Assembly (NCBI GenBank): GCA_015493715.1
Contig: WGCP01000418.1
Span: 1-37,572 of the forward strand
DNA from: Desulfobulbaceae bacterium
GTDB lineage: Bacteria > Desulfobacterota > Desulfobulbia > Desulfobulbales > Desulfobulbaceae
DNA: 37,572 bases
Reading direction: 5' to 3'
Shown: positions 1 to 4,349 of the stretch, in pieces
Layout: each line of letters begins with the position of its first letter
How positions within the stretch are numbered: position 1 is the stretch's first letter
Notes under the pieces: model-generated
Told to the model about the DNA's origin: nothing
The model's input: the letters and a program-made list of their open reading frames with translations, nothing else
The model's database searches: none
Position numbers and translations under genes: made by a program

Positions 1-223
1 CAAAGGGAAAGGAGTTGAGCGTCCAGTCCCAGGGCATTTTCGCGTTACGGATACGATTGACCAGGCTTCGTTCCTGACGATAACGCAGTTCCTCTCTGAG
101 CAGGTTACAGATAATATCCTGGACAGAGCTGCCGCTCTCGGCCAGGGCAACCTGTTGATCTATAACCCCGGCCATACCTTTAAACTTCAGCTCTTCGATG
201 AGTCTGTTTATTGCATCATTCAT
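1..223 (-). CDS. istB: IstB-like ATP-binding transposition helper, N-terminal part only
   Basis: Translating the minus strand from the ATG at 223-221 gives an open frame to the window edge, about 74 codons. It begins MNDAINRLIEELKFKGMAG and later contains LLREELRYRQERSLVNRIR, the basic helical N-terminus typical of IstB. IstB is the AAA+ regulator that works with IstA in target choice and strand transfer. Its ATG overlaps the istA stop codon by four bases (ATGA), so the two are probably translationally coupled. The Walker motifs lie beyond the left edge, so whether the gene is intact cannot be judged. Too short at the edge to stand alone, but the context makes the call firm. Confidence 0.85.
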   Translation of the reverse strand, partial: MNDAINRLIEELKFKGMAGVIDQQVALAESGSSVQDIICNLLREELRYRQERSLVNRIRNAKMPWDWTLNSFPF

Positions 224-1602
224 GTCAGATCAAAAAAGTCCCCGGCAGTGTTATCAAGGATGATTTTTTCCAGCCTGGCCAGGTCGTAAAGACCATATTG
301 CAGAGCCGTACTGACTGCGGCCATGAACGGTTCGCCAGGGTAGCTACGCTGAAGATTTAACAGACGACGAAGGTTCAGGACCCCCCGGCCCCTGCTTCTT
401 TTCTTGAGGTTTTGCACATAGCAATCCAGCTCCTGATTATCACCGGTGAGTAACACCTCTTCCCTGCAGGGCCCCAGGTTGGCGTCCTTGCGGTGTAATG
501 GCGGATGATGCCCGGGCAAAGTTGATCTGCTATCCCTTTTCTCCAGTATTCGTGTATGTTCAGCCACCATGGCCTGCTTGTTGTAGATCAACACCTTGTC
601 CCAGTGTTTCTGCACTTCCAGTCTGGCGCCCACCAGGTTATGGGGCACGGAGTAACGGTTGGTTTCCAGATGGACATACCCCTGGATATCAACGACCCGG
701 TAATAGCTCTTGTAGACCGGCGGCACCACAGGAGGCAATGGGTTCAGACTGAGCTTTTCCATGATGTATGCCGCATCCGGACTCATTCCCAGCGACCGCT
801 TATGCTTTTGATTTGACACCTTGTTGCACCAGTCGATCGCCTGAGTATTGATATCCTGCCAGTCAGTGAAGGTCCGGCCGGACAGAAAATTGTTTTCAAT
901 GTAATGGAAGGGCCTCTCCACTCTGGCCTTCCTGTCGGGTTTGTTGAGCCAGTGCGGTTCAAATCGTGTCTGATACATTCGGCCGAAGTGCTCCATCTCC
1001 GGAGTAATAAGGGCATCCGGACCGACACCATCGGCAACGATCACATGGGTATTATCGATAATGCACTTGCCGGCAGTGCCGTCCATGTATTCAAAGGCCT
1101 TTGCCAGAAACACCCTGCATTCAAAACGGGTGAAGCAGGGATAATACTGGACATAAATCCTCCGACTGTAGGCAAGCACAAGGGCTGCGCACTGCGCCTT
1201 TATTTTACGTGCTCCCAGGATAATATTGTGGGGAGAGGTGTCATGCTGCATCTCTTCCCCCGGTTCAAACACATATTCACCGGCTCGCTTTTTCTTTCCG
1301 GCACCCAGGTTTTCTTTCCTGATGATCCAGGTCAGGCTCTGGTAAGGAATGTGAATATCATGGCGTGATGCCGGCTCTTCCCGGACCCGTACCGCATTAC
1401 CCCGACACTCACGCAGCAGATCCTTTATGATGGGCAGGTGCCGGTCATACTTCGATTCTTTCACCGGTGCATGCGGGTCACCCTGTTTAAGGACACCCCG
1501 AACAGTATTTCTGGATATCTTCAACATCCGGCTGATTGCGCGGATGCCTACACCCTTATGTGCCATCTCAAGAATGGTCTGCCGGTATGCCGGGGTTATC
1601 AT
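220..1602 (-). CDS. istA: IS21-family transposase IstA
   Basis: This 460-residue DDE transposase catalyses strand transfer of the element. An N-terminal helix-turn-helix (about residues 16-40, RAISRMLKISRNTVRGVL) should bind the element ends. The catalytic core shows D121 (EMQHDTSP), D183 (CIIDNTHV) and E229 (ARVERPFHY), consistent with a DDE triad. Its length fits IstA, usually around 400-510 residues. I chose the ATG at 1602 because the protein then starts MITPAYRQTI directly before the HTH; an in-frame upstream start would add 15 unconserved basic residues. The 5' end overlaps the ParB-like gene by 35 bp and the 3' end overlaps istB by 4 bp. No frameshift or missing catalytic residue is seen, so it may be active if istB and the left end are intact. 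Confidence 0.92.
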   Translation of the reverse strand: MITPAYRQTILEMAHKGVGIRAISRMLKISRNTVRGVLKQGDPHAPVKESKYDRHLPIIKDLLRECRGNAVRVREEPASRHDIHIPYQSLTWIIRKENLGAGKKKRAGEYVFEPGEEMQHDTSPHNIILGARKIKAQCAALVLAYSRRIYVQYYPCFTRFECRVFLAKAFEYMDGTAGKCIIDNTHVIVADGVGPDALITPEMEHFGRMYQTRFEPHWLNKPDRKARVERPFHYIENNFLSGRTFTDWQDINTQAIDWCNKVSNQKHKRSLGMSPDAAYIMEKLSLNPLPPVVPPVYKSYYRVVDIQGYVHLETNRYSVPHNLVGARLEVQKHWDKVLIYNKQAMVAEHTRILEKRDSRSTLPGHHPPLHRKDANLGPCREEVLLTGDNQELDCYVQNLKKRSRGRGVLNLRRLLNLQRSYPGEPFMAAVSTALQYGLYDLARLEKIILDNTAGDFFDLT

Positions 1603-2479
1603 GGTTCTTTGCCTGTTCTTTAAGTTCAATAATCGCCTTCTCTGCACTATTCAGCCAGATCCGACATCGACGACGGCACTGACTGTCCAGCATGATATCT
1701 GATCCAGTTTGCAGTCGTTTCAGGATGTGGCAGACAATGCGGATATCCTTGAACCACTTTCCTTCAGGACCATCATTGAGCTGTTTTCCCTGTTTCTGGT
1801 GTTCCTGCTCTTTGACGGTTCTAATGAACAACCGGGGCTCAGCAATAATTCGGTCACGGACGGTTCTCACCGATTTCCTGTAATGGTCGTAAAGACAGAC
1901 GAGTTCCCTTGTGGAAAGAGGATCGGCAACAATCTTTCTGGTCAGATCAAGACAATCCTGCTCGTTGGCGCGCGACAACGGCACCAGCACACGGCTTGCC
2001 GCCCAGCTGGATACCGAGCCCTTCATAACCGCTCCCATGACCTTCTCCGGCAGTGATTCAACAAGATCCAGTCTGCGCTTGACCCAGCCTTTATCTTTTC
2101 CCAGCCGCCTGGCTATTTCGGAGAAAGAATAGTTGAAACGATGGTGCAGCTCCTGAATCAGGCCCGCCTGTTCAATGGCTTCCATCTGCCGGTCATCGTT
2201 TGTTACCAACAGATTGATCAGTGAATCAGGTTCCCCCTCCACCAGCTGAACCTTGAGGCAGTCACGACCACAGGCCTTTAATGCTTCTTACCTGAGATAC
2301 CCATCGATCAGGACAAATCTGTCTTTCTCACTGGTCACCAGAGCCGGGACTATCTGTCCGTAGGTATTGATCGAGTTCTGCATCCGGTGTAACGCCTTTT
2401 GGTCCTGTATTCTGGTGTGGCTGTAGCGCAGAACCAGGAGATGAAAATCAACTTCTCTGATCAGGTTTTCGGTATTCAT
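1568..2479 (-). pseudogene. ParB-like DNA-binding gene of the IS element, interrupted by an in-frame TAA
   Basis: Two open segments in the same frame (2479-2288 and 2287-1568) are separated only by TAA at 2290-2288. The first 63 codons form a ParB N-terminal (Spo0J/ParB nuclease-like) domain ending in VLIDGYLR. The continuation EALKACGRD is the expected rest of that domain. It is followed by a helix-turn-helix (FSEIARRLGKDKGWVKRRL) and a basic C-terminal region. Together the span is about 303 codons, a normal ParB-like length. The start ATG at 2479 has an upstream AAGGGG. A downstream GTG at 2242 could restart translation of the HTH part. Because one base change would restore the frame, this could be a recent nonsense mutation, a sequencing error or a split gene. 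Its likely role is a DNA-binding accessory or regulator of the element, which is inferred from position only. Confidence 0.75.
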
Positions 2480-2533
2480 GGCCCCTTTTTACCAGGAAGC
2501 CAGATGAAAAAACATCTAGTCCTATCTTTGCAA

Positions 2534-2998
2534 TCAATCACAAAAACAACAATATCCACTGGAAATAGCTGTGATTTCAACAATACACTCGTCCGTCTTT
2601 ACAACCTTGCCTGCATGTATTGGGATAATTTTGTATCTACCTGTTAATTCATTTTTTCTTAAATCTGACTCGTCCGTCTTTGCAATTTTGCTTACTGATG
2701 GGTTTTGCCGTCGTTTTCGGTTCCTGCGCCTTTGCTGCTGACGATTCTTCCGGGTGTATTCCGGGTGACGGGCACGATATTCTTTCCAGTAATTAGGATT
2801 CTTCTCCTTCCATCTCTTCTGCGCCTGCTCCCTGGCCTCTTTATAGTCCGGATCCGAGGCAAGTTTTTTCCTGTTCCATTCCCTTTTCCTGGCCTGCTGG
2901 CATTCTCTCCTGGAACAGTACTCCTGGCCGGGCACCTGCCTGCATGGAACAAAGAGCACTCCACAGTCTTTGTTCCGGCACCGTTTATGCTTACACAT
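2534..2998 (-). CDS. Cys-rich, strongly basic small protein of the IS element (putative zinc-binding DNA-binding protein)
   Basis: This 154-residue protein starts MCKHKRCRNKDCGVLFVPCR and carries seven or more Cys/His residues in the first 35 positions (C2, H4, C6, C11, C18, C27, C32), which suggests a treble-clef or zinc-ribbon fold. The middle, about residues 36-105, is extremely rich in Lys, Arg, Gln and Trp and looks nucleic-acid binding; the C-terminal third is unremarkable. The ATG at 2998 is chosen because AAGGAGA lies six bases upstream; in-frame GTG (3001) and TTG (3004) starts are possible. It is first in the element's apparent operon, 54 bp before the ParB-like gene. I do not recognise a named family, and a function in transposition control is inference from context. 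Confidence 0.75.
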   Translation of the reverse strand: MCKHKRCRNKDCGVLFVPCRQVPGQEYCSRRECQQARKREWNRKKLASDPDYKEAREQAQKRWKEKNPNYWKEYRARHPEYTRKNRQQQRRRNRKRRQNPSVSKIAKTDESDLRKNELTGRYKIIPIHAGKVVKTDECIVEITAISSGYCCFCD

Positions 2999-3004
2999 CA
3001 CCAA

Positions 3005-3032
3005 TCTCCTTGAATTGTGAACAACTCAAGGA
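3005..3032 (-). promoter_or_regulatory. Hairpin sequestering the ribosome binding site of the first IS gene
   Basis: On the minus-strand RNA the segment folds as UCCUUGAGUUGU facing ACAAUUCAAGGA. That is twelve consecutive pairs including one G-U wobble; opening the last pair leaves a UUCA tetraloop. The 3' arm contains most of the AAGGAGA Shine-Dalgarno that serves the ATG at 2998. Read as DNA, the same site is a 26-bp near-perfect palindrome and could instead be a repressor operator. Either use would damp expression of the element's first gene, in particular from transcripts reading in from outside. Confidence 0.6.
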
Positions 3033-3162
3033 ATATTGCGATATCAAACAGTTATGGAAAAACAGTATTGAGAAAAAATGGGAGAAAAAAACTTCAGAGA
3101 TTTTTCAAGAGAAAAACCGAGGTGCTGACAGGAAGGGGTGGGTCAATTCTGATTAGCGTTGA

Positions 3163-3336
3163 AGCGTAAGCGATGAATGGCACCAGTCGTTCGTTCCCGG
3201 CCGCACACCGGATATCCTGGATATTGCCGCCGATACCTTTGGTGCAGCCAGCATGGTTTTGTTATGGTTTCGGTGTCCCTGGTGCACAAAGAACCGTGCC
3301 GAAGCAGCCGGAAACAGGATGAATCTTCTCTCTTAA
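3163..3336 (+). pseudogene. 3' fragment of a VanZ-like gene, truncated by the IS insertion
   Basis: Frame +1 from 3163 encodes SVSDEWHQSFVPGRTPDIL and continues DIAADTFGAASMVLLWF before a TAA at 3334-3336, 57 codons in all. The motif [S]DE-HQ-FVPGR followed by a D-(I/L)-x-D-x-x-(A/G)-N/D-T-x-G-A helix is the C-terminal signature of VanZ-family small membrane proteins. The upstream half, with its transmembrane helices, is absent because the IS21-like element lies immediately 5'. The preceding in-frame codon is TGA (3160-3162), inside the element. The missing 5' part should lie beyond the left end of the element, outside this window. The fragment ends 30 bp before the convergent end of hemB. 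Confidence 0.75.
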
Positions 3337-3365
3337 ACGATTTTGGTTGTAAAACTCCTTTCGTA

Positions 3366-4349
3366 TTATTCCCTTTGTTCACGTAACAGTTTTGCCATAT
3401 CCTTGGCAAAATAAGTAATAATAATATCCGCGCCCGCCCGGCGGATGGAGAGCAGTGTTTCCGCCATCACCCGTTCACCATCAATCCATCCCTTTTCGGC
3501 CGCAGCCTTGATCATGGCATATTCACCGCTGACATGATAGGCGGCTATCGGTAGATCAAATTCATCCCGTAGCCTGCTGATTATATCAAGGTAGGCAACA
3601 GCCGGTTTGACCATGAGAATATCGGCTCCCTCTTCAACGTCAAGGGTCGCCTCCCGTAGAGCTTCACGGCTGTTGGCCGGGTCCATCTGATAGCTGCGGC
3701 GGTCACCGAACTGGGGCGCACAGTCGGCAGCGTCCCGGAACGGGCCGTAAAAGGCGGATGCATATTTAACGGCATAGGACATGATCGGCACCATATGGAA
3801 TCCATTTTCATCCAGGGCTGAGCGGATTTCACTGATCCTGCCGTCCATCATGTCCGAGGGCGCTACCATATCGGCACCGGCCCGGGCATGGGACAAGGCG
3901 GTTTTGGCAAGCAGCTCAAGGGTGGCGTCATTGTCTACCTCATGGCCGATCAGGCATCCGCAATGGCCGTGGTCCGTATATTCACAGAGACAGACATCTG
4001 TAATAACATTCATCTCCGGAACCGTATTTTTCAACTCTTTGATGGCCTGCTGGACGATACCGTTGTTGGCATAGGCCCCGGATCCGATGCCGTCCTTTTT
4101 TTCAGGCAGGCCAAAGAGGATCACGGAGTTGATACCGACTTTCATGCAGGAAGCGGCCTCTTGTTTCAGCTGGTCCACGGAAATACGGTCCACTCCGGGC
4201 ATGGACGGGACCGGCTCTCTTTTTCCCTTACCGGGGATGATAAACAGGGGATATATCATCTGCGAAGCAGACAGCCTGGTTTCGCGGATCATTGCTCGCA
4301 GTGTGGTATTTCGTCGCATGCGGCGTGGTCTGTATTCGGGGAAAATCAT
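3366..4349 (-). CDS. hemB: Delta-aminolevulinic acid dehydratase (porphobilinogen synthase)
   Basis: This 327-residue cytosolic enzyme condenses two 5-aminolevulinate molecules to porphobilinogen, the committed pyrrole of heme, siroheme and corrinoid synthesis. The Zn-type metal site is visible as C120, C122 and C130 in [14 protein letters not shown]. The two active-site lysines are K195 ([16 protein letters not shown]) and K248 (ILMVKPA), the latter forming the Schiff base. The length matches the bacterial family, about 320-340 residues. The ATG at 4349 has an excellent AGGAGG six bases upstream. The gene is last in the minus-strand run after ntrX, but a 219-bp gap separates them, so it may have its own promoter. 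Tetrapyrrole supply fits a cytochrome- and siroheme-rich anaerobe. Confidence 0.97.

Follow-up and report, generated by a model that had tools for sequence, protein, structure and literature searches.

The left end of a contig from a Desulfobulbaceae bacterium (assembly GCA_015493715.1, contig WGCP01000418.1) raises the question of what a gene for a small cysteine-rich (Cys-rich) protein and a gene for a ParB-like protein are doing ahead of the transposase genes of an IS21-type element, a family described (PMC10122671) as having two open reading frames (ORFs) and multiple terminal repeats. The window, i.e., the whole stretch of DNA analysed, is this entire contig (C418; 37,572 nucleotides). 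The element lies on the minus strand; read from the right, an outer end at about position 3164 is followed by the Cys-rich gene, the ParB-like gene, istA and the start of istB, in which the left edge of the window falls at base 1. A sequence-only reading of the locus had proposed that the two additional genes belong to the element and could control its expression, target choice or end binding. We found that the Cys-rich leader gene and a set of direct repeats embedded in it form a cassette that lies inside the mobile unit, and that gene and repeats together head IS21, serine-recombinase and tyrosine-recombinase genes alike. The pair seems to be a portable control module that carries its own address, and not a peculiarity of a single IS21 element. 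The features concerned are:

1..223, minus strand: 5' part of istB (first 74 codons), ended by the contig edge; matches the IstB_IS21 profile
220..1602, minus strand: istA, ATG at 1602, stop at 220; a GTG-started ORF extends to 1647
1568..2479, minus strand: ParB-like gene (ParB_N/HTH_ParB type), broken by an in-frame TAA
2534..3001, minus strand: Cys-rich leader gene, an ORF with ATG at about 3001 and stop at 2534, about 155 amino acids
2665..2686, minus strand: embedded repeat 1, ATTGCAAAGACGGACGAGTCAG, 29.1 bits, the best motif match in the window
2584..2605, minus strand: embedded repeat 2, GTTGTAAAGACGGACGAGTGTA, 21.1 bits, 81 bp after repeat 1
2513..2534, minus strand: repeat 3, ATTGCAAAGATAGGACTAGATG, diverged, 71 bp after repeat 2
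3079..3164, no strand assigned: outer end of the element, with a second copy on contig C34 of the same genome
3135-3148, minus strand: terminal repeat core AATTGACCCACCCC, one copy in the window

A leader gene with embedded repeats heads three kinds of recombinase gene

The 3' end of the Cys-rich gene carries a direct repeat of about 20 bp (motif ATTGCAAAGATGGACGCG, window form TTGYAAAGACGGACGAGT) with starts at 2685, 2604 and 2533. Repeats 1 and 2 are the top two matches to the family motif in the 37.5 kb, the next best reaching 8.1 bits, and a repeat at 81-bp spacing with 17 of 18 bases alike was reached in none of 500 shuffles. Repeat 3 begins at the last base of the Cys-rich stop codon, reading TTGCAAAGAT at 2533 with an extra base inside, and has a counterpart of the same position and type in L041, a relative whose IstA is 79% identical. 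The motif, which was derived starting from the window repeats, is common to Cys-rich genes of other genomes.

That these genes travel with the element is evident from multi-copy relatives. A Candidatus Accumulibacter genome (G479, reached from locus L097) holds eight copies (L232-L239), seven of which were aligned to L232. L233-L237 and L239 begin at the same base as L232, CCTTGACGCTC..., just upstream of the Cys-rich gene, and L238 matches L232 for 13 bases further than the other six. The alignment of L236 with L232 runs over 4,496 columns (~4.5 kb), from the left end to GAGCGTCGAGGG, an inverted version of that end; the unit is flanked by 6-7-bp duplications, and the interior ORFs of L232 are the Cys-rich gene, with both repeats present, a ParB-like gene, istA and istB. 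Similarly, genome G418 holds two 3.5-kb units, 97.5% identical, with TATTAACGCCGGTCAAAAAATGG ends and 5-6-bp duplications (CCTTCT; CCCAT); in them the Cys-rich gene, again carrying both repeats, is joined by a winged-helix gene and by istA, and istB is not among the listed ORFs. Relatives therefore carry the extra genes between inverted ends and target duplications (5-7 bp), as expected of element genes, and we saw no copy that had these ends and lacked the Cys-rich gene. As for the ends and duplications of the window element itself, the outer end can be read there; the second end and the target duplication cannot, because istB runs off the contig. Three of the Accumulibacter copies (L234, L237, L239) share an insert of ~3.3 kb at the same istA position, with a few duplicated bases.

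A DNA-only scan for two motif copies 62-92 bp apart, across the genomes of ~85,000 species, returned at least 117 loci, one viral contig among its matches too. Of these listed loci, 114 contain a Cys-family protein, which covers the first site in 112. The exceptions are a chance-like match inside an unrelated coding sequence (L079), a locus that starts 95 bases before the first site (L106), and an array with no Cys-rich gene in the 3.4 kb upstream (L127). By their NCBI names the loci span twelve phyla, Bacillota through L079 only; the matches listed comprise 42 in Pseudomonadota, 40 in Thermodesulfobacteriota, 13 in Myxococcota, 6 in Bacteroidota and 5 in Nitrospirota, with one locus in each of seven phyla and 4 loci unplaced. 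Repeat arrays outside the leader gene occur in L127 (3392-3472, oriented), L103 and L191.

The genes downstream were classed in the 85 loci whose downstream sequence extends for 2.5 kb or more, the other 32 being too short. IS21-type genes follow in 56, a serine recombinase in 21, tyrosine recombinases in 5, a winged-helix gene only in one (L055), and nothing recognised in two (L132, L136); Pfam confirmed one representative of each downstream type. Among the IS21-type loci, the order is winged-helix-IstA-IstB in 24 (plus one with a further tyrosine recombinase), ParB-IstA-IstB in 18 (plus 3 with CHC2 and 2 without detected IstB), winged-helix-ParB-IstA-IstB in 5, IstA-IstB in 2 and IstB in 1. 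Twenty of the serine-recombinase loci have ParB, 18 of them together with RepB, and one has the recombinase alone; in these serine-type units a conserved block starts shortly ahead of the leader gene and extends through RepB, and inverted ends, which were looked for in them, were not found. The tyrosine recombinases stand in tandem (L059, L062, L064, L103, L113), Pfam assigning all three of L103 to Phage_integrase, in loci that we take to resemble RIT elements, i.e., three tyrosine recombinases in a row; the window element, by contrast, is of the DDE type and has only the leader cassette in common with them. The suggestion that the extra genes are a feature of IS21 elements consequently fails for the Cys-rich gene, which also heads serine- and RIT-like tyrosine-recombinase elements, even as their membership in the element holds. 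In a tree of the Cys proteins (96 of 106 rows left after thinning at 80% identity) recombinase class was clustered, the 103 columns being too few to resolve the number of class changes.

Searches by protein extended this picture. The Cys-rich gene was found in 22 genomes of a 395-genome Desulfobacterota sample (E 1e-8), and a search starting from the winged-helix partner found it upstream in 19 of 25 loci, L270 being marginal, with L266 and L268 cut upstream. Plasmids gave four matching records, and phages gave no match. Partners of replication or partition type comprise TrfA (PF07042), RepB (PF07506), ParB_N, the CHC2 zinc finger and a ParA-like ATPase. In three loci from Desulfobacterota (L036, L037, L039) the leader gene adjoins a TrfA-type initiator, with no recombinase seen and with weaker repeats; in L037, on which Pfam was run, the ParA-like ATPase is also present. 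In the IS21-type loci L050, L125, L131 and L168 istB is followed by a gene for a CHC2 (DnaG-type) zinc finger, and in L103 such a gene stands ahead of the tyrosine recombinases.

We found no description of the cassette in the literature (open-access PubMed Central (PMC) only; ISfinder and TnCentral were not searched), nor any open-access PMC paper containing its 15-mer. To our knowledge, the sharing of a leader cassette across three recombinase chemistries is undescribed. Since, in addition, protein and repeat went unmatched in the libraries searched, we consider the cassette new. Transposons are classed by their recombinase, and here one leader gene with internal sites spans three recombination chemistries and many phyla. 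This distribution hints at a single portable answer to a difficulty that the elements share (copy number, circle stability or timing).

Constraint on the repeats and their change between subfamilies

Codon choice was compared in a set of 31 non-redundant Cys genes that had been found through their protein, since the DNA pattern itself fixes part of the motif. The Ile codon of the encoded protein motif, IAKMDA, is ATT in 16 of 16 cases, as against 55 of 144 at other positions of these genes (p 8e-7); its Lys codon is AAG in 30 of 36 (129 of 325 elsewhere) and its Asp codon GAC in 30 of 34 (87 of 191 elsewhere), and GCA and GCG are also enriched. Judged by such genome comparisons, the repeats are shown to be kept at the nucleotide level and not for the protein alone. 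For annotators the lesson is that conservation of a protein motif, here IAKMDA, can reflect a signal in the DNA or RNA.

The spacings between repeats, 81 and 71 bp in the window, cluster at 59-60, 69-72, 78-81 and 87-90 bp; their best period is ~10-10.75 bp, with a vector strength of up to 0.85 (53-118 spacings, four thinning levels). A 15-mer search of seven genomes, allowing up to one mismatch, placed 9 of 9 exact matches in Cys loci and 6 one-mismatch matches elsewhere, one of the genomes (G052) having none. Mimicry of a host site, or pairing with a host RNA, was considered and rejected, as all nine exact matches lie inside Cys loci.

More distant Cys proteins come with other repeats at the same place: GATTGTAAAGAACAACTT in L205, CGTGAGATACAAGCCGAG in L206, L210 and L211, and GAGATACAAGACGAGATA in L208 and L269. 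A repeat of the CGTTACAAGATCTCTTAA type is found in L047, L209, L218, L263, L265, L267 and L273. Of 51 protein-found loci, 42 were kept for a de novo repeat test, and in 32 of these a direct repeat beat all 40 shuffles. The copies agree within a locus and differ between subfamilies; as far as comparison of loci can tell, repeat sequence and protein subfamily are shown to change together. A protein/repeat pair that recurs in several subfamilies with different repeats makes specificity swaps directly testable. The winged-helix locus L270, where the Cys-rich gene is barely detectable, has a different repeat, of the TTGTTCAAGAAGTGTTCA type, with copies 69 bp apart, and is possibly another subfamily.

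Control, replication or an accessory role

The predicted model of the Cys-rich protein has a mean predicted local distance difference test score (pLDDT) of 82.5, with residues 1-99 mostly above 90 and the C-terminus at about 50-70. It suggests a zinc-finger-like N-terminus with two Cys pairs and a basic part made of helices (four in all), predicted at high confidence, and a poorly ordered, repeat-encoding C-terminus, predicted at low confidence; the structure alignment comprised the window protein and 69 of 107 thinned full-length proteins. No Pfam model reached its cut-off, and there was no NCBIfam, PHROG, PADLOC or PDB sequence match.

The Cys-rich product is the likeliest binder of the repeats, because its gene is their only constant partner. 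In the reading that we favour, the protein would bind the directly repeated sites of its own gene as DNA, at and just beyond the 3' end, and, from this position behind the first gene and ahead of the recombinase genes, would nucleate a multi-site complex with ParB-like, winged-helix, RepB-like or CHC2 proteins as exchangeable partners. This complex could act as a self-limiting control that restrains the downstream operon as copy number rises, either as a roadblock or by feedback. A DNA-bound control complex is favoured since the sites lie between the Cys-rich gene and the recombinase genes, with no separate promoter visible there. We give about an even chance to this scheme, in which a small zinc-finger-like protein and two to three phased repeats in its own gene would provide multi-site, self-limiting control of the element.

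Several observations weigh against it. The stretch from the repeats to the next gene shows no enrichment of sigma-70-like promoters, and therefore an operator on a downstream promoter is unsupported, leaving a roadblock, an assembly site or an RNA role. The one-way orientation of the repeats (289 sites on the gene's strand versus 1 opposite, among the matches listed) is equally expected of an RNA signal. The spacing periodicity may stem in part from shared ancestry, and so may the joint change of repeat and protein, the two being linked. The best fold-search matches, YacG in PDB (E 1.9) and an HNH protein among viral structures (E 0.04), are not significant. Ten of the 42 loci in the repeat test had no significant repeat (L035, L037, L038, L039, L042, L043, L044, L045, L207, L217), the seven other than L037, L038 and L039 being mostly truncated or decayed, and four of the 25 winged-helix loci (L251, L252, L255, L274) have room upstream and neither Cys gene nor repeat.

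Were the repeats to work through RNA, the Cys-rich protein would bind them in its own mRNA and set how it is translated, how stable it is or how much read-through reaches the recombinase genes. Their sense-strand bias, the first place of the leader gene in its gene row, the missing promoter signal behind it and the basic, zinc-finger-like character of the protein would all suit such control. The spacings, however, follow the DNA helical repeat, no secondary structure beyond the self-complementary TTGCAA is conserved in the three spacing groups, and Rfam has no match in window positions 1-3400; phased spacings and the missing fold and Rfam match favour, on comparative grounds, a DNA-level role, and we hold RNA-level control to be unlikely, if well short of negligible. 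A rather smaller chance goes to an origin or centromere module, with the repeats as iterons and the Cys-rich protein as an initiator or adaptor in the replication or partition of an excised circle, partnered by TrfA, winged-helix, ParB/RepB or CHC2 proteins. Elements of this kind pass through circles, the partners are of replication and partition type, and the direct phased repeats lie in an initiator-like gene; yet the partners vary between classes, and two of the three TrfA-type loci (L037, L039) are without a significant repeat. It is just as improbable that a recombinase-agnostic cassette with coevolving phased sites serves DDE, serine and tyrosine elements, with ParB-, RepB-, TrfA-, winged-helix- and primase-like proteins as interchangeable partners, as the origin/centromere of the excised circle or as a replication/partition switch. 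The O gene of phage lambda carries that phage's origin, ori, and offers an analogy in that direct repeats lie inside the gene of a presumed binding protein; the window cassette differs in being common to unrelated recombinases, with replication only a candidate role.

That the two genes are accessories special to the IS21 element, binding its ends or choosing its targets, agrees with their place inside it. The same leader gene nonetheless precedes serine and tyrosine recombinases, the ParB-like gene is optional, and broken in the window, and there is no sign of target choice or end binding: the conserved sites are located ~480-635 bp inward from the outer end, within the Cys-rich gene and behind it; we consider this role very improbable. 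Scarcely credible, finally, is that the repeats are nothing but the IAKMDA motif, kept for the protein. Of 268 sites in 108 pattern-found loci, 216 do read in the IAKMDA frame; the other 52 do not (7 are read in a different frame, 23 span the stop codon and 22 lie past it), synonymous codons are fixed, and the repeat-encoding part of the protein is modelled at low confidence.

The window element and its ParB-like gene

ORFs and profile matches agree that the Cys-rich and ParB-like genes lie upstream of istA and istB on the same strand. The match to the IS21 transposase model NF033546 covers positions 3-294 of the 294 in the profile and scores 139.9 bits, short of the curated cut-off of 160; Mu-transpos_C_2 is above its cut-off in IstA (Pfam/NCBIfam), as is IstB_IS21 on the 74 amino acids of IstB present, a full IstB being found in a relative. 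Contig C34 ends in window positions 3079-3148, followed by a second terminal repeat plus window 3134-3164 and then by unrelated DNA, so that it holds two terminal repeat cores, 24 bp apart, where the window has one. The element end is placed at about 3164 because C34 departs from the common sequence there, close to the boundary of 3162 proposed from the window alone. The reported 35-bp overlap of the ParB-like gene with istA holds with the istA ATG at 1602, a start also present in L041. The sequence-only reading was accordingly right on gene order, overlap and outer end; the ParB-like gene, which is broken, and istB, which is cut, are not as it described them, and it overlooked the embedded repeats. 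Because the Cys-rich and ParB-like genes lie inside it, the element, most of which is present in the window, is described as an IS21-type variant and not as a standard family member.

With the IS21 family (IstA/IstB; IS21, IS5376) this element shares the istA-istB order and an IstB helper of the AAA+ type; relatives show inverted ends and short target duplications, and the end on C34 has more than one terminal repeat, as described for IS21 (PMC10122671). It differs in the two or more further upstream genes inside window-type elements, where the family is described with two ORFs only (PMC10122671). Extra ORFs occur in some insertion sequences, their role being unknown according to PMC3281130. 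PADLOC anti-phage defence models matched none of the five window proteins.

The ParB-like gene is interrupted as follows:

2288..2290, minus strand: in-frame TAA inside the ParB-like gene, context GYLR-*-EALKACG

It encodes 63 amino acids ahead of the TAA, with a possible restart at 2242, and therefore cannot yield a whole ParB-like protein under the standard code; the ParB-like gene of L041 has no stop at this position, and the TAA may be a sequencing error. Read through, the protein matches ParB/Noc-type models, with HTH_ParB above its cut-off (E values of 4e-9 and 7e-9) and ParB_N at 15.7 bits, under its cut-off of 26.3; a plasmid search with it returned distant partition proteins only. The CTP-binding motif of the ParB family is GERRxRA; in the alignment of relatives GYxRxxA stands where it is expected, and the window TAA falls exactly in this motif. 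The gene resembles partition proteins of the ParB/Noc/KorB type in its HTH_ParB part and, below the cut-off, in its ParB_N-like part, and differs from them in its element context, in GYxRxxA for GERRxRA and in the nonsense codon of the window copy. Across relatives it is optional, a small winged-helix gene often standing in its place. An inverted near-copy of the repeat in this gene (1886-1907, plus strand; 3.1 bits), present in L041 too, was set aside as a coincidence, given the single opposite-strand site among the at least 117 loci.

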